Of a DNA stretch of 32,557 bases, positions 8,226 to 28,935 are shown in pieces. The notes beneath the pieces were generated by a model that saw only the letters and a list, made by a program, of their open reading frames with translations, did not search any database and was not told where the DNA came from. A program made the translations under genes and the position numbers. Numbering within the stretch: the first letter of the stretch is position 1; the number at the start of each line of letters is the position of its first letter. Source of the stretch: Planctomycetota bacterium (GTDB lineage: Bacteria > Planctomycetota > Planctomycetia > JALXBF01); assembly GCA_026991575.1 (NCBI GenBank), contig JALXBF010000190.1:1-32557 (forward strand), in the 5' to 3' direction.

Positions 8226-9005
8226 CTAGCGCGCGTCTACGTTCCGGCGGCGGCGCCAGAGAACCAGCCCGGCTCCGCCGGCCATAAGTAGCAGGCTGGT
8301 CGGTTCAGGGGCCGGCTGGAACGACCAACTCAACACCTGGTGCGCTGCAGCGGCACCTCCGGTCGAAGCCGTGAATCCAACGTACGCGTAGCTGGTGCCG
8401 AGTAGCGCTGGGATGTCGACGGCGTGGGCAAGCGTCGTAACGAGGGTGCTGCCACGGTACAGCCTAGTCGTCAGGGTGCCGCCGGCGTAGTCAATCGTTG
8501 CCGTCCACGTCTGGCCGTCCTGGAGCAAATAGCCCGCAGGGATGTTCGTTGTGGCAACCGAGACGACCGAACCGTTCGTGTTGACTCCGATGTGATTGGC
8601 CGAAGGGTCGAAAAGTGGAAAGTTGTAATAGATGTCGAACTCGACAGCGACACTCGGGCTAATACCTGCGTAGCCGAGCCCGCCACCGCTGCCGCCCAAC
8701 TCGCCCGGTCCGGTAGGCTGGATCGTAAACGTCAATCCGTCGGCACCACCGCCGATCAGGTCCACAAACCGAAACCGGAACGTGGTGGTGAACTCACCGA
8801 CGAAAACATCGGTCGTGCGAAACACGCTACCACGACGATACATGTTCGCGGACACGACCGTCAGGATGCCGCCGCTGGCGGACGCGTCGCCGTTGAGTTG
8901 CAGCCCGGCTGTGCTGGAGAAATCCGCATAGTTGAAGCCGCCAGCCTTGACGACCGAAACCGCCAGCAACGTGACCGCAGCCGCCCATACGGCTTTCATT
9001 CGCAT
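8226..9005 (-). CDS. Secreted L-type lectin-like protein with PEP-CTERM sorting signal
   Basis: This protein has 259-260 residues from the ATG at 9005 (AAGGGACG directly before it); the frame is open to 9125, but the extra leader is not signal-like. Residues 1-22 are a signal peptide. Residues 23-225 resemble the legume/L-type lectin fold: FNYADFSSTAGLQLNGDA, later GADGLTFTIQ (88-96), GGGLGYAGI (108-115), VEFDIYYN (121-128) and DPSANHIGVN (133-142), the positions of the sugar- and metal-site loops. The C-terminus has a PEP motif at about residue 234, a hydrophobic segment and RRRR, the PEP-CTERM signal recognised by an exosortase. It is likely an exported or surface carbohydrate-binding protein. 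It lies 190 nt upstream of flgF on the same strand; no functional link to flagella is evident. Confidence 0.85.
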   Translation of the reverse strand: MRMKAVWAAAVTLLAVSVVKAGGFNYADFSSTAGLQLNGDASASGGILTVVSANMYRRGSVFRTTDVFVGEFTTTFRFRFVDLIGGGADGLTFTIQPTGPGELGGSGGGLGYAGISPSVAVEFDIYYNFPLFDPSANHIGVNTNGSVVSVATTNIPAGYLLQDGQTWTATIDYAGGTLTTRLYRGSTLVTTLAHAVDIPALLGTSYAYVGFTASTGGAAAAHQVLSWSFQPAPEPTSLLLMAGGAGLVLWRRRRNVDAR

Positions 9006-9236
9006 CGTCCCTTGCCCCCCGGAATACGGTCCTCCCATTGCATGCACCCACTGGCGCCTCACCGAACCAAACTCCCGTGCGAACCAGCAACAAAGCCGAC
9101 AACCGAGTGCTATGCGCTGGTCCAACCTTGGCTGCCGGGTCCGCCGGCGTACGCGGCCGAGCCTTGCCCCCGGAACTACCCCCGTTTTCGCGCTACGATG
9201 CTAGCTGATGGAGCCGCGCCAGGTCAAGCAGGTTGA

Positions 9237-18162: not shown

Positions 18163-19872
18163 ATGCGTGGTCATTCCCTGTGCTTGCTCTGCTTCGTGTG
18201 TGCTGCAGGAGCAGCTTCGGTGAGTTCTGCCCAAGAGGTAAGCCTCAGGTTCCGGTCGACCCGAGAGCTGCCGGCCGTTGCACGCAACGGTATGGTAGCC
18301 ACCAGTGAACCGCTTGCTGTCGAGACGGGCCTCGCCGTGCTCAAAGCTGGCGGCAATGCGATCGATGCAGCCATCGCCGCAGGGGCCATGATCGGGCTGA
18401 CCGAACCGATGAGCTGCGGCATCGGCGGTGACCTATTCGCCATCATCTGGAGTGCGCGTGATCAGAAGCTGTACGGGCTGAACGCCAGCGGACGTGCGCC
18501 GAAAGCGGCAACAATCGAGCGTCTTCGCAAGCTCGGCTACGAACACATGCCCGTGCGCGGGCCGTTGAGCTGGACCGTTCCCGGCTGCGTGGACGGTTGG
18601 GCAGAGATGCACCGTCGGTTCGGATCGATGAAATGGTCGGAGCTGTTTCAGCCGGCGATCCGAGCCGCAGAGCAAGGCTTTGTCGTCCGGCCCGTGATCG
18701 CACGCTACTGGCGTAACGCGGAACGACTGCTCAGCCGCTGGCCCTCATCAGCCCGCACGTACCTGGTCGACGGCAAGGCCCCGCGTGCGGGTGATCTGTT
18801 TCGCAATCCTGACCTGGCGCGCACCTACCGGCTGATCGCCGAGCATGGTCCGGAGGCGTTCTACCGCGGGCCGATCGCCCAGCAGATCGCAGCCACCGCC
18901 CGGCAACTCGGCGGCCTGATGACGGTCGCGGACCTAGAAGCTCACCGTTCCACGTGGGTCGAACCGGTTAGCACAACCTACCGTGGCTACACGGTCTGGG
19001 AGTTACCGCCAAACGGCCAGGGCATCGCCGTGCTCCAGATGCTCAACATCCTAGAGGGATTCGATCTGAAACAACTCGGGCACAACAGCGCCGAGTACCT
19101 GCATCTGCTGATCGAAACGAAGAAAATCGTTTTCGAAGATCGGGCACGGTACTACGCTGACCCGGAGTTTGCCGATGTGCCGCTGCAGGCACTCATCTCA
19201 AAACGCTACGCTGCTCACCGCCGCAGGCTGATTGATCCCAGGCGTGCTCGACGCTCGGTCCCGCTAGAGGATCCGCGACTGGTTGTCAGCGACACGATCT
19301 ACATGACCGTTGTGGACAAGGATCGAAACTGTGTGTCGTACATCCAGAGCAACTACTACGGGTTCGGCTCGGGTATTGTGCCCGAGGGGCTGGGCTTCGC
19401 GATGCAAAACCGCGGCGCCCTCTTTGCTCTGGATCCTGAGCACCCAAACCGGCTCGAGCCGGGAAAGCGGCCGTTTCACACGATCATCCCGGCGTTTGTC
19501 ACTAAGGACGGCAAGCCGTGGTTCTGTTTCGGCGTGATGGGCGGCGACATGCAGCCGCAGGGGCAGGTGCAGGTGTTGCTGAACATCATCGAATTCGGTA
19601 TGGATCCGCAGAAGGCGGGCGCCGCACCACGGTTCCGCCACTTCGGCTCCTCGACGCCGCGGGCCGATCATGTGATGACCGACGGCGGCCGCGTGGGCCT
19701 GGAGCGGGGCATTCCCGCCGAGGTTCGCCGCAAACTCGAGGCAATGGGCCATCGGCTCTTGCCCCCCGGCGGCGCATTCGGCGGCTACCAGGGCATCCTC
19801 ATCGACCATGAGCGGGGATTGCTCATCGGAGGCTCGGAGGTTCGTAAGGACGGTCTGGCGCTGGGGTACTGA
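18163..19872 (+). CDS. ggt: Gamma-glutamyltransferase-family Ntn-hydrolase
   Basis: This exported protein of 569 residues starts at the ATG at 18163 with a signal peptide ending near SVSSAQE. It follows the GGT fold: GMVATSEPLAVETGLAVLKA and GGNAIDAAIAAG, then the self-cleavage/nucleophile region VVSDTIYMTVVDKD, where T378 aligns with the catalytic threonine that becomes the small-subunit N-terminus. NYYGFGSGIV and RPFHTIIPAF follow. The oxyanion region reads MGGDMQPQGQVQ rather than the classical GSPGG, which is usual in the YwrD-like/cephalosporin-acylase-like branch, so glutathione may not be its substrate. A gamma-glutamyl peptide or another amide is possible. The redoxin lipoprotein starts 121 nt downstream; a TAGAAT box (19914-19919) in that gap is a possible separate promoter but lacks a good -35. 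Confidence 0.9.
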   Translation: MRGHSLCLLCFVCAAGAASVSSAQEVSLRFRSTRELPAVARNGMVATSEPLAVETGLAVLKAGGNAIDAAIAAGAMIGLTEPMSCGIGGDLFAIIWSARDQKLYGLNASGRAPKAATIERLRKLGYEHMPVRGPLSWTVPGCVDGWAEMHRRFGSMKWSELFQPAIRAAEQGFVVRPVIARYWRNAERLLSRWPSSARTYLVDGKAPRAGDLFRNPDLARTYRLIAEHGPEAFYRGPIAQQIAATARQLGGLMTVADLEAHRSTWVEPVSTTYRGYTVWELPPNGQGIAVLQMLNILEGFDLKQLGHNSAEYLHLLIETKKIVFEDRARYYADPEFADVPLQALISKRYAAHRRRLIDPRRARRSVPLEDPRLVVSDTIYMTVVDKDRNCVSYIQSNYYGFGSGIVPEGLGFAMQNRGALFALDPEHPNRLEPGKRPFHTIIPAFVTKDGKPWFCFGVMGGDMQPQGQVQVLLNIIEFGMDPQKAGAAPRFRHFGSSTPRADHVMTDGGRVGLERGIPAEVRRKLEAMGHRLLPPGGAFGGYQGILIDHERGLLIGGSEVRKDGLALGY

Positions 19873-19993
19873 ACCACCTGGCACGCGCCCGACGCAACGT
19901 GGGCTCGCTCCGCTAGAATCAAACGACAGCAGAGGATCCGTCATTACGGGCCAGGGCTATACCGGGCACCACCAACAGGGGAGGACTCACAGC

Positions 19994-20533
19994 ATGCGTG
20001 CGCGTCGCTACAGCCGTCGTGCCTTCCTGGGTACGCTCGCGGCCGTGGCCGTCAGTGGCTGTGCCGGCTCGAGTGGGCGGATGTTCAACTCTTACCTCGG
20101 CAAAACACCGCCGACACTCCAGGGCCAGTTTACCACCTGGCTCAACGGCGAACCGACCGACTGGCCGGAGCTGAAAGGCAAGGTGGTATTCATCACGTTC
20201 AGCTTCTTGCAGTGAGGGGGGTGCCGCATGTTGCGGCCCCACCTGGTCAGGTGGCACAAGGAATTCTCCAAACAGGGTCTGGTGGTCATCGAAGTCGAAG
20301 ACGGTCGGATCAATAGCCTCTCAGAAGTCCAGAGCCACGCCCAGGAGAATGAGCTCCCGTACGTGATCATCCACGACGGGAACGGGGAGATAACTGCTCG
20401 GTTCGGCATCATGGCTTATCCGTCCGCGTACGTGGTGGACCGTTCGGGGAAGGTGATCTGGGAAGGACATCCGGGCGCGGACCAGGCCGAAAGAGCGATT
20501 CGGCGTGCCCTGCAGGAAGGCACGTCAGGATAG
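19994..20533 (+). CDS. Selenocysteine-containing thioredoxin-fold lipoprotein (in-frame TGA at 20213-20215)
   Basis: Read through one TGA, this is a single 179-residue protein. Residues 1-23 are a Tat-type lipoprotein signal: SRRAFLG (7-13), a hydrophobic core and lipobox AVSGC with C23 as the lipidated residue. Residues 40-175 are a TlpA/ResA-like thioredoxin fold: LKGKVVFITFSFLQ leads straight into the active site U74-G-G-C77, then RPHLVRWHKEF, LVVIEVE, a central strand with the cis-proline motif (AYP, P143) and AYVVDRSGKVIWEGHPG. The TGA replaces the codon of the attacking cysteine of the CxxC motif, exactly where selenocysteine occurs in known redox selenoproteins. GGGGAGGA lies 8 nt before the ATG at 19994. 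Neither half alone makes a complete fold: the first stops one residue before the active site and the second would begin right after it. A bSECIS-like hairpin follows the TGA. The alternative is a nonsense-mutated pseudogene, but no other damage is seen. No sel genes are in this window. Confidence 0.82.
20239..20254 (+). promoter_or_regulatory. Candidate bacterial SECIS element
   Basis: CCACCT (20239-20244) and AGGTGG (20249-20254) form a perfect 6-bp stem closed on a GGTC loop (20245-20248). The loop begins 29 nt after the TGA at 20213-20215. Bacterial SECIS hairpins lie in the coding sequence just after the UGA (loop roughly 16-37 nt away) with a G among the first loop bases; E. coli fdhF uses the same GGUC loop. 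A second hairpin, GCCGCA-TGT-TGCGGC (20223-20237), stands between the TGA and this one and may stack below it. Confidence 0.72.
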
Positions 20534-24911: not shown

Positions 24912-25085
24912 GCGGCCAGGTTAGCCTGCGCGACGACGTGTTCTGATCGCCCGGGAGTGTGCCCCCTCGGCGGCCGGCCTGTGCGTGCCGGCACCGTTCA
25001 GCATCCCCCCTGGGGTAGAATTAACACGATTCCCACATGTTTCGCAGGCCTGGTTTCCGCGCAGCGACTGGGAGCGACCGAACCG

Positions 25086-26984
25086 ATGCCTTTGACGACG
25101 CTGCCTGTCACGAAGGAATTCCTTGACATGCGTTTGACTAAGGTGCCGACGCGGGTCTTCCGCGCCAGCACCGCAGCCAGCCGCTACGTTGCCCGGCTCA
25201 TTGCCGACTTGATCCGAGAGCGGCAGGCTGAGGGACGGCCCTGTGTGCTGGGCCTCGCCACCGGCTCCACCCCCGTGGGCGTCTACCGCGAACTGATTCG
25301 GATGCACCGCGAGGAGGGTTTAGACTTCTCCAACGTGATCACCTTCAACCTGGACGAGTACTATCCGATGGATCCGTCGCGGTTGCAGAGCTATCGCAAC
25401 TGGATGGATCGCGTTTTCTTCAACCACGTGAACATTCGCCCCGAGAACACGCACGTGCCCGATGGTTCGATCCCGCCGGACCAGGTCGAGGAGTACTGCG
25501 AGCGGTACGAGCAGATGATCCAGGAGGCCGGCGGGCTTGATCTTCAGCTGCTGGGCATTGGCCGCACCGGGCACATCGGCTTTAACGAACCAGGTTCCAC
25601 CGTCGACAGCCGGACCAGGCTGGTTACGCTCGATCCGGTAACTCGCAAGGATGCCGCCAGCGACTTCTTTGGTGAAGACAACGTGCCGTTGCAAGGAATC
25701 ACGATGGGCGTGGGCACGATCCTGTCGGCCGGCAAGATCGTGCTGATGGCTTTTGGCGAGCACAAGGCCGCGATCGTCCAGCAAGCGGTGGAGGGGCCAG
25801 TGACCGAGAGTGTGCCGGCCAGCTTCCTGCAGACGCACCCTGACGCTCAGTTCGTGTTGGATGAAGCGGCTGCCGCAAAGCTGACCGAGATCGATACCCC
25901 GTGGCTGGTGGGCTCTGTGGAATGGACTCCGACGCTGGTCAAGAAGGCGATGATCTGGTTGTGTATGCGGGTGAACAAAGCGCTGTTGAAACTGGAGGAT
26001 GACGACCTCCGTAATCACGGCCTTCATGAACTGCTCCGCGAATACGGCCCGGCTCAGCGAATCGCCCAGGACGTGTTCCAGCAGATGATGGCTACGGTCT
26101 GTTTCACGCCGTCCGGTTCGGACCGGCGGCGCATCGTGGTGTTCAGCCCGCACCCGGACGACGACGTCATTAGCATGGGCGGCACGCTGTTGCACCTGAC
26201 GCGGGTCGGGCATGACGTGCACGTTGCGTACATGACCAGCGGGAACATTGCGGTTTTCGACCACGATGTCGAGCGGTACGTGGACTTCGTGCTTCGTTTT
26301 CTCCGTGTCTTTGAGATCCCGGACAAGCGAGCCGCGGAGTTAGCCCGTGACGTGCGTCGGTTCATCGCCCGCAAGAAGCCGGGCGACGTGGACAGCTACG
26401 AGGTCCGGGAGATCAAGACCCTGATCCGGGAGATCGAAGCACGTGCGGCTGCCATGCATCTGGGCGTGCCCGATGAGAACCTGCATTTCCTCCGGCTGCC
26501 GTTCTACGAGACCGGAGCGATTGAGAAGAACCCGGTCACGGAAGCGGACATCGAGATCATCGAGCGGCTGCTTTCCGAGGTGCAGCCCCATGACATCTAC
26601 CTCGCCGGTGACCTTTCCGACCCGCACGGCACGCACCGAGTCTGTGCCGACGCAATCCTGACCGCAGTACGCCGCGGCCGCTACGGGCCTCAGCCACTGA
26701 ACGTCTGGCTCTACCGTGGTGCCTGGCAGGAGTGGGCACCGCACGAGATCGACAAGGCAGTGCCGTTGACGCCCGAGGACCTGCGTCAAAAGCGCAAGGC
26801 TATCTTCATGCACGAAAGCCAGAAGGATGAGGCGATGTTCCCGGGCCCGTATGACGAGCGGGAGTTCTGGGAGCGAGCCGAGGACCGCAATCGGCACACG
26901 GCCGACCTGTACAACCGGCTCGGCTTGCCCGAGTATTACGCCATGGAAGGGTTCGTCCGCTGGACGCCGGACGACGTCCTCTGA
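25086..26984 (+). CDS. nagB: NagB-like glucosamine-6-phosphate deaminase fused to a PIG-L (LmbE) deacetylase domain
   Basis: The protein has 632 residues from the ATG at 25086; the ATG at 25128 is also possible. Residues about 20-275 form a NagB/6-phosphogluconolactonase-type sugar isomerase: LGLATGSTPVGVYREL (55-70), FNLDEYYPM (87-95) and LLGIGRTGHIGFNEPGS (155-171), with catalytic H163 and E168. A linker of about 75 residues follows (includes SVEWTPTLVKKAMIWL). Residues about 348-632 are a PIG-L deacetylase: VVFSPHPDDDVISMGGTL with the zinc-binding HPDD at 356-359, and the later DLSDPHGTHRVCADA supplying another His ligand. NagB deaminates glucosamine-6-phosphate to fructose-6-phosphate; PIG-L enzymes deacetylate GlcNAc-type groups, so one chain may do both steps. 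This architecture is known in Bacteroidetes and planctomycetes. A TAGAAT box at 25016-25021 could be its -10. Confidence 0.9.
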   Translation: MPLTTLPVTKEFLDMRLTKVPTRVFRASTAASRYVARLIADLIRERQAEGRPCVLGLATGSTPVGVYRELIRMHREEGLDFSNVITFNLDEYYPMDPSRLQSYRNWMDRVFFNHVNIRPENTHVPDGSIPPDQVEEYCERYEQMIQEAGGLDLQLLGIGRTGHIGFNEPGSTVDSRTRLVTLDPVTRKDAASDFFGEDNVPLQGITMGVGTILSAGKIVLMAFGEHKAAIVQQAVEGPVTESVPASFLQTHPDAQFVLDEAAAAKLTEIDTPWLVGSVEWTPTLVKKAMIWLCMRVNKALLKLEDDDLRNHGLHELLREYGPAQRIAQDVFQQMMATVCFTPSGSDRRRIVVFSPHPDDDVISMGGTLLHLTRVGHDVHVAYMTSGNIAVFDHDVERYVDFVLRFLRVFEIPDKRAAELARDVRRFIARKKPGDVDSYEVREIKTLIREIEARAAAMHLGVPDENLHFLRLPFYETGAIEKNPVTEADIEIIERLLSEVQPHDIYLAGDLSDPHGTHRVCADAILTAVRRGRYGPQPLNVWLYRGAWQEWAPHEIDKAVPLTPEDLRQKRKAIFMHESQKDEAMFPGPYDEREFWERAEDRNRHTADLYNRLGLPEYYAMEGFVRWTPDDVL

Positions 26985-27098: not shown

Positions 27099-27944
27099 CT
27101 AGCTGGATCGCCCGGCGAACGGTACGACGTTGACCGATTGTCCCGCACCATGGCTGCGTGCGTGGCGCTGCTGTAGCTCTCTGGTCAACTGCTCGACGTG
27201 GCGGTAGTAGTCGGCTTGTTGCAACTCGGCAGCCGCCGCAGCATCCAGGAGAAAGATCACATCCGGGTGAAGCTGAAGCGCGGACGCAGGGCAAGCGGCC
27301 GTGACCGGTCCTTCGATGGCACGGGCCACGGCTTCGGCTTTGTTCGGGCCGCTTGCCAGCAGCAGGATCCGTCGTGCTTCCAGGATGGTACCGATGCCCA
27401 TCGTTAGTGCGTACCGCGGCACGTCTGCAGGTGAATCGAAAAAGCGTGCGTTGTCGCGGATTGTCTCGGCTCGGAGCACCACCGGACGGGTGCGACTGGC
27501 CAGCGACGACCCCGGCTCGTTGAATCCGATGTGGCCGTTGCGGCCGATACCGAGTACTTGTAGGTCGATACCCCCGGCGGCACGGATCTGCTGCTCGTAC
27601 GCTTCGGCTGCCGCCAGCGGGTCGTCGGGCTGAGCCGGTGGAATGTGTGTGGCCCGCGGTCGCTCGCGCAAGCGGCCGAAGAGATGCTCCTCCATGAAGT
27701 GGTGGTAGCTCTGCGGGTGATCCTCCGGAATGCCCAAATACTCATCCAGATTGAACGTGACCACCTGCGAGAAGTCTAACTCCCCGTCGTTCTCCAGCCG
27801 CACCAGCTCATCATAAAGCCCGACGGGCGTGCTACCGGTAGCCAATCCGAGCACGAGGTTGGGCTTCGCGCACAAGGCCTGCGCCACGAACTCGGCAGCC
27901 CGCTGGCTCAGCTCCGCGTAGTCGTCGGTGATGATGATTCGCAT
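27099..27944 (-). CDS. nagB: Glucosamine-6-phosphate deaminase NagB (stand-alone)
   Basis: This protein has 281 residues from the ATG at 27944, which has GAGGG 6 nt before it; the open frame extends to 28187 but its leader is low-complexity and unconserved. It has the complete NagB pattern: VLGLATGSTPVGLYDEL (31-47), FNLDEYLGI (64-72), LGIGRNGHIGFNEPGSSLAS (131-150) and TMGIGTILEARRILLLASG. The GRNGHIGFNE form is that of Bacillus-type NagB. The C-terminus reaches about residue 245 in family terms, then an unconserved tail. It is convergent with the fusion gene (113 nt apart) and divergent from the PIG-L gene (190 nt), so each probably has its own control. It is more similar in length to typical NagB than the fused copy is. 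Confidence 0.94.
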   Translation of the reverse strand: MRIIITDDYAELSQRAAEFVAQALCAKPNLVLGLATGSTPVGLYDELVRLENDGELDFSQVVTFNLDEYLGIPEDHPQSYHHFMEEHLFGRLRERPRATHIPPAQPDDPLAAAEAYEQQIRAAGGIDLQVLGIGRNGHIGFNEPGSSLASRTRPVVLRAETIRDNARFFDSPADVPRYALTMGIGTILEARRILLLASGPNKAEAVARAIEGPVTAACPASALQLHPDVIFLLDAAAAAELQQADYYRHVEQLTRELQQRHARSHGAGQSVNVVPFAGRSS

Positions 27945-28134
27945 TGGTAGCCCTCGCGTCGCTGCAACGCCATTGCCCCCGCGGGGGCATGTGCGGACCG
28001 TGTGTGGGCCGATCGGTTCAGTACTGTTGCAACCGCCGTCCACCCCTCGGTCTGTTCTATTATTGGTGCCGGAACCGGCCCCAGCAGCGCGTGTGTCTGG
28101 AGGGGAGGTCCGCCGGTGCGTGGAGGTAAGACCG

Positions 28135-28935
28135 ATGCCTAAGGAATCCGCGAGCAAGTCACCCAGCGAGTTGCGTGTCTTGGCCATCCATGCTCATCCG
28201 GATGACGTGGAGTTTCAATGCGCCGGTACGCTGGCGCTGTTAAAGCAACTCGGCTGCCAGATCACGATTGCGACCATGACGCCGGGTGATTGCGGCTCGG
28301 ACGAACTTGGTCCGGATGAGATTGCCGCGGTGCGCCGCGCGGAAGCGCGGCGGTCCGCCCAGTTGCTGGGAGCTGCGTACGTGTGCCTTGAATTCCGCGA
28401 CCTTCAGATCGACATCAACACTGACGCGCGCCGCCGTGTGGTCGAGGCGCTGCGCCGCACCCGCCCCGACATCATCTTCACGGCCCCTCCCGTTGACTAC
28501 ATGACCGACCACGAACACACGAGCCGCCTGGTGCGCGACGCAGCTTTCATCGCATCTATCCGCAACTACGCCACGCATGAGTGGGATCCGGCCCCCCCGC
28601 TGGACCACATTCCGTACCTGTACTACGTCGACCCCGTCGAGGGTGTGGATTGGTTCGGGCAGCGTATCGAGCCGCACTTCTACGTCGATATCACGGACAT
28701 GTTCGAGCTGAAACGCCAGATGCTCGCCTGCCACGAGAGCCAGCGGGCCTGGCTGCTGAAGCAGCATGGTATTGACGAGTACCTGAACGCTCAGGAGCAG
28801 TGGTCGGCGCAGCGGGGCTCGGAGGTGGGCGTCAAGTACGCCGAGGCGTTCCGTCAGCATGTGGGCCACCCGTACCCGAAGGACAATATTCTAAGCCGGC
28901 TGCTGGGCAGCCGTGTCCGTGTGCGCACACAATAG
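28135..28935 (+). CDS. PIG-L (LmbE) family GlcNAc-type deacetylase, BshB-like
   Basis: This is a 266-residue zinc deacetylase. VLAIHAHPDDVEFQCAGTLA (15-34) has the AHPDD metal site (H21, D23-D24), and DYMTDHEHTSRLVRDAAF (120-137) the second site (H125 and H127, with D124). Substrates of the family are N-acetylglucosamine conjugates, including GlcNAc-malate in bacillithiol synthesis (BshB) and GlcNAc-inositol (MshB). The overall layout is nearest BshB1, but bshA and bshC are not nearby, so I do not use that name. The ATG at 28135 has GGAGG 8 nt before it, and the longer frame from 27928 overlaps the opposite-strand nagB. Its neighbours suggest a role in amino-sugar recycling. Confidence 0.87.
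   Translation: MPKESASKSPSELRVLAIHAHPDDVEFQCAGTLALLKQLGCQITIATMTPGDCGSDELGPDEIAAVRRAEARRSAQLLGAAYVCLEFRDLQIDINTDARRRVVEALRRTRPDIIFTAPPVDYMTDHEHTSRLVRDAAFIASIRNYATHEWDPAPPLDHIPYLYYVDPVEGVDWFGQRIEPHFYVDITDMFELKRQMLACHESQRAWLLKQHGIDEYLNAQEQWSAQRGSEVGVKYAEAFRQHVGHPYPKDNILSRLLGSRVRVRTQ

Follow-up and report, generated by a model that had tools for sequence, protein, structure and literature searches.

A conserved in-frame UGA points to a new subfamily of putatively exported thioredoxin-fold selenoproteins in Planctomycetota

A gene for a putative exported ResA/TlpA-like oxidoreductase in a Planctomycetota bacterium (JALXBF01, assembly GCA_026991575.1) is very likely a genuine selenoprotein gene. 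It lies within a window, i.e. the whole stretch of DNA analyzed, that comprises positions 1–32,557 of contig JALXBF010000190.1. On the plus strand at 19994–20533, the frame is open from an ATG (19994) to a TAG (20531–20533) except for a single TGA (20213–20215). This codon corresponds to residue 74 of 179 and takes the place of the first cysteine in the CxxC motif of the thioredoxin fold, giving U74-G-G-C77, with the resolving cysteine encoded at 20222–20224. Comparative sequence evidence strongly supports the decoding of this UGA as selenocysteine (Sec), which we regard as nearly certain.

A Shine-Dalgarno-like GGGGAGGA (19978–19985, plus strand) precedes the ATG at 19994. The first-pass annotation of this DNA had described two open reading frames in one frame, split by one TGA and forming U74-G-G-C77 when joined; the reading frame and a PF00578 match that runs across the TGA bear this out. 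It had also anticipated that standard pipelines would split the gene, and gene finders would indeed cut it in two, with 20228–20533 (plus strand) emerging as a separate 101-aa ORF. It went too far in granting a ribosome site to the first part alone, because an SD-like GAGGGGGG lies 7–14 nt 5′ of ATG 20228, the start of the downstream fragment. The neighboring genes encode a gamma-glutamyltranspeptidase (ggt, PF01019; 18148–19872, plus strand), which ends in a TGA at 19870–19872, and a microbial-type PARG (PF10021; 20714–21592, plus strand). Elsewhere, the window encodes a fused glucosamine-isomerase/PIG-L protein (24957–26984, plus strand) beside separate glucosamine-isomerase and PIG-L proteins (27099–28187, minus strand; 28072–28935, plus strand), and a legume-lectin-domain protein with a PEP-CTERM-like tail that adjoins flagellar genes (8226–9125, minus strand). 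Promoter and Rfam scans returned nothing relevant.

Searches of genome contigs and of genomes from the class (398) and the phylum (392) recovered a coherent group of homologues with the signature SFxU(G/P/R)xC...PHLVRW; an order-wide search (one genome of the order) yielded nothing new. The TGA occupies the same codon in the window gene and in 16 planctomycete homologues that are 34–48% identical to it where aligned (L024, L025, L029, L030, L031, L060, L061, L062, L064, L065, L068, L070, L071, L088, L089, and L106); each of the 16 retains the downstream frame. A Sec/Cys column, which the first-pass annotation had proposed to look for, is present: among 21 members it holds TGA in 17, Cys in three (L063, L066, and L090), and Ser in one (L067), and the homologues continue past the TGA rather than ending at it. 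C77 is invariant in family alignments A1 and A3. L106 (L106:1756–1809, minus strand) carries two TGAs, the second in place of C77, forming a UxxU motif (UDTU) followed by the same PHLVRW hairpin. In L067, Ser (AGC) replaces Sec and the SECIS element is lost, with the PHLVRW peptide unchanged and selA still in the genome. The flanking genes scanned in the homologues included no common partner, and these neighbors differ from the PARG and ggt genes of the window.

The published model of bacterial SECIS elements specifies a loop of 3–9 nt with a G in the first two positions, a stem of 4–16 bp, a UGA-to-loop distance of 16–37 nt, and a minimum free energy (MFE) of at most −7.5 kcal/mol (PMC13188914). 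The hairpin CCACCU-GGUC-AGGUGG at 20239–20254 (plus strand; loop GGUC at 20245–20248) conforms to this model, with a 4-nt loop, a 6-bp stem, a distance of 29 nt from the UGA, and −8.4 kcal/mol. It is kept in 17/17 TGA genes with 97.1% of alignment cells paired, compared with at most 57% for slid versions, and RNAalifold predicted the same hairpin from the alignment; in some TGA genes, the hairpin alone is weaker than −7.5 kcal/mol. All four non-TGA genes have a degraded hairpin: none was found in L066 and L090, L063 retains a weak relic, and L067 lacks it, encoding the PHLVRW peptide by other codons (CAT CTC GTG CGA TGG). Of the 14 Arg codons at the Arg column of the hairpin in the TGA genes, 12 are AGG, whereas AGG accounts for 4.7% of the Arg codons in genes sampled from the source genome; the chance of this precise coding is ~0.6% given the peptide HLVRW. 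Covariation is confined to one stem pair, where A-U stands in place of C-G in three related genes and the protein is altered (His to Gln, Arg to Ser); the double change is compensatory at the RNA level and probably stems from a single evolutionary event.

The first-pass annotation had noted a SECIS-like hairpin in the right place. The SECIS is the conserved element at 20239–20254 and not the stronger hairpin upstream of it (20223–20237), which we considered and rejected: it is more stable but lacks conservation, with 62% of cells paired against 97% for the element at 20239–20254. On its own, the 50-nt MFE fold of 20213–20262 is not more stable than shuffled sequences (z −0.8 to −1.0) and favors an alternative, unconserved structure. 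No second exact copy of the hairpin turned up when the whole genome was scanned, and near matches were as numerous as in a reversed control; the hairpin sequence is therefore no marker for further selenoprotein genes of this genome.

The source genome (4.96 Mb, 97.8% complete) contains the selenocysteine machinery that the first-pass annotation had suggested searching for, arranged as a compact selD-selB-selA-selC(UCA) cluster. On contig C184, selB (383 bits) and selA (559 bits) lie side by side with a tRNA-Sec (selC, anticodon UCA, 73.3 bits), and selD (L017:6999–8051) is located directly upstream. This selD has an in-frame TGA of its own (L017:7050) at the catalytic position, and the ORF caller starts after it. 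Read from the ATG at L017:6999 with the TGA as Sec, the protein contains ...NYASCAG-U-AGKLP..., the SelD catalytic loop, and the match to the SelD profile TIGR00476 scores 365 bits and starts at profile position 1, against 345 bits and a start at position 30 for the ORF as called. The selD gene thus appears, by sequence, to be a second, independent selenoprotein candidate. Across the family, selA exceeded the cut-off in 15/17 genomes, with a partial match at a contig edge in one more; no selA was found in the TGA-bearing genome G597 (77% complete).

These observations bear on other ways of reading the TGA. If translation stopped there and restarted at ATG 20228, two proteins would result; the purine-rich, SD-like GAGGGGGG ahead of this ATG and the frequency of Met at or beside its position across the family speak for such a restart. 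However, the same Met is found in the stop-free Cys forms (L063, L066, and L090), the restart product would begin too late to contain the first strand, the catalytic residue, or a complete active-site helix, and the Sec/Cys column, the hairpin, and the sel cluster would be left unexplained, so that we consider a restart very improbable. The TGA is one substitution away from TGC or TGT, as expected of a Cys codon altered by sequencing error or in a pseudogene, but its recurrence at the same codon in 16 divergent homologues from different genomes, each with a conserved downstream frame, indicates that it is not due to chance or sequencing error and reduces the probability of this explanation to a negligible level. 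If this organism generally translated UGA as Trp or Cys, like any sense codon, a UGA would equally be found in frame, yet the neighboring ggt terminates at TGA, the genome encodes a dedicated tRNA-Sec with anticodon UCA together with selA, selB, and selD, and the presence of the hairpin is linked to the TGA; such a reassignment is scarcely credible.

Under the favored Sec decoding, SelB and Sec-tRNA(UCA) would read the UGA at 20213–20215 with the aid of the hairpin at 20239–20254, producing a 179-residue exported protein with a UGGC active site. Profile and structural comparisons agree with the earlier view that the joined frames form one thioredoxin-fold protein. The joined protein matches AhpC-TSA (PF00578) at 55.3 bits (gathering cut-off 26, 8e-15) over residues 51–156, spanning the TGA, and Redoxin (PF08534) at 42.8 bits; PF00578 was also matched by all 20 rows of family alignment A3 (E 0.001 or better). 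An AlphaFold model computed with an alignment of five sequences shows a thioredoxin fold (mean pLDDT 84, >90 across most of the core, low confidence in the signal region), with the UGGC site located at the N-terminus of the fold's first helix. The closest solved structures identified with Foldseek were the C-terminal domain of DipZ and ResA, and DsbE/TlpA-type proteins were also near when a profile search was included. None of the NCBIfam models reached its own cut-off on the 179-aa protein, including ResA (NF002854, 44.3 bits, curated cut-off 170) and the WAxxUGC selenoprotein model (NF041054, 18.1 bits, cut-off 300).

The N-terminal signal region MRARRYSRRAFLGTLAAVAVSGCAGS (19994–20071, plus strand) combines a twin-arginine motif (SRRAFL) with a lipobox-like VSGC. 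The first-pass annotation had read it as a signal for Tat export and lipid anchoring; both motifs are present, but the window protein scores below the cut-offs of the TAT model (TIGR01409, 13.9 versus 16.7 bits) and the lipoprotein model (LPAM_1, 13.3 versus 20), and the lipobox is not family-wide. The RR/lipobox pattern recurs in L025, L030, and L031; in L024, L060, and L061, the leader is simply hydrophobic and has no lipobox Cys. A signal peptidase II (SPase II) gene is located within the window. A Tat/lipoprotein signal is plausible from the sequence, and we infer export and membrane anchoring.

The fold, the export signal, and two DsbD_TM proteins encoded in the source genome suggest a membrane-anchored reductase of the ResA/TlpA type, and an extracytoplasmic thiol-disulfide oxidoreductase role is probable by analogy with these proteins. 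In the mechanism we propose, the Sec74 selenolate would attack a substrate disulfide or oxidized thiol, the mixed selenide-sulfide would be resolved by Cys77, and a DsbD/CcdA-type membrane protein would re-reduce the Sec74/Cys77 pair. The reaction direction, substrate, and electron donor assumed here are somewhat favored over other choices. The catalytic Glu80 of ResA is absent at the corresponding place in the window protein, and the scanned flanks of the homologues contained no conserved gene neighbor hinting at a substrate. Instead of a ResA-like reductase, the selenoprotein might be a peroxidase or a disulfide oxidase/isomerase working outside the cytoplasm: peroxiredoxins also belong to PF00578, Sec lends itself well to reactions with peroxides, and the GG dipeptide differs from the CEPC of ResA. 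Its motif is nevertheless UxxC, as opposed to the TxxU of Sec peroxiredoxins, and both the closest structures (DipZ, ResA, and DsbE/TlpA-type) and the DsbD_TM partners point to the reductase, which makes a peroxidase or oxidase role a less likely, though serious, contender.

UxxC selenoproteins of the PF00578 (Prx-like), PF08534 (Redoxin), and TlpA types are already catalogued (PMC13188914, Table 1). The designation "undescribed" in the first-pass annotation is therefore limited to the subfamily, which is apparently unlisted. Prx-like thiol:disulfide oxidoreductase selenoproteins (PMC13188914, Table 1; PMC1088965; PMC2398784) belong to the same Pfam family and have UxxC or UxxU motifs, the latter seen here in L106, whereas the window family has an export signal and the SFxU(G/P/R)xC...PHLVRW signature. 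The Redoxin selenoproteins (UxxC) and the thiol-disulfide isomerase-like/UGC TlpA selenoproteins (cd02966) are alike in fold and redox motif; in contrast to the UGC of the latter, the window protein has UGGC and falls far under the NF041054 cut-off. ResA/StoA/DsbE (CcmG) proteins, which gave the best NCBIfam match and are among the best PDB matches, share the extracytoplasmic membrane-tethered design, but the window protein has Sec for the first Cys, lies far below the family cut-offs, and is without the Glu80 of ResA. We found no account of the subfamily in our literature search on selenocysteine in Planctomycetota and on selenoproteins resembling ResA. By sequence and by published descriptions of the Prx-like and Redoxin UxxC families, which come from metagenome surveys of 2005–2008, it is a new subfamily within a known kind of selenoprotein; as the known families were compared by description, it may be part of an already listed PF00578/PF08534/TlpA-type family.

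In the family tree (midpoint-rooted, L106 left out), 20 members fall on one side of a branch with support 96/78, and the non-Sec members occupy three separate places. This suggests that Sec is ancestral in the family but falls short of proving it because of the midpoint root and some modest supports. A separate set of TlpA-like UGPC/UPPC proteins of other Planctomycetota (L072, L075, L076, L077, L078, L080, L084, L085, and L086) has TGA at the same active-site codon; these differ in their WATWU(G/P)PC-type motif and downstream sequence, lie on the opposite side of the tree, and are intermixed there with Cys forms. For the family itself, we hypothesize that Sec was the ancestral residue in a clade of exported, ResA-like proteins of Planctomycetota and gave way to Cys or Ser on three or more occasions, each loss being accompanied by decay of the SECIS hairpin; we see the balance for and against this history as even.

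Planctomycetota selenoproteins are little studied, with one earlier genome paper found (PMC4807772), and the bacterial selenoproteome gains here a subfamily that is clearly delimited and apparently unlisted. The family includes Sec, Cys, and Ser versions, the Ser one having the same peptide without the hairpin, and therefore offers a direct natural comparison for lost Sec decoding. If Sec is ancestral and was repeatedly lost, these genes would form a natural series for the study of selenocysteine loss.
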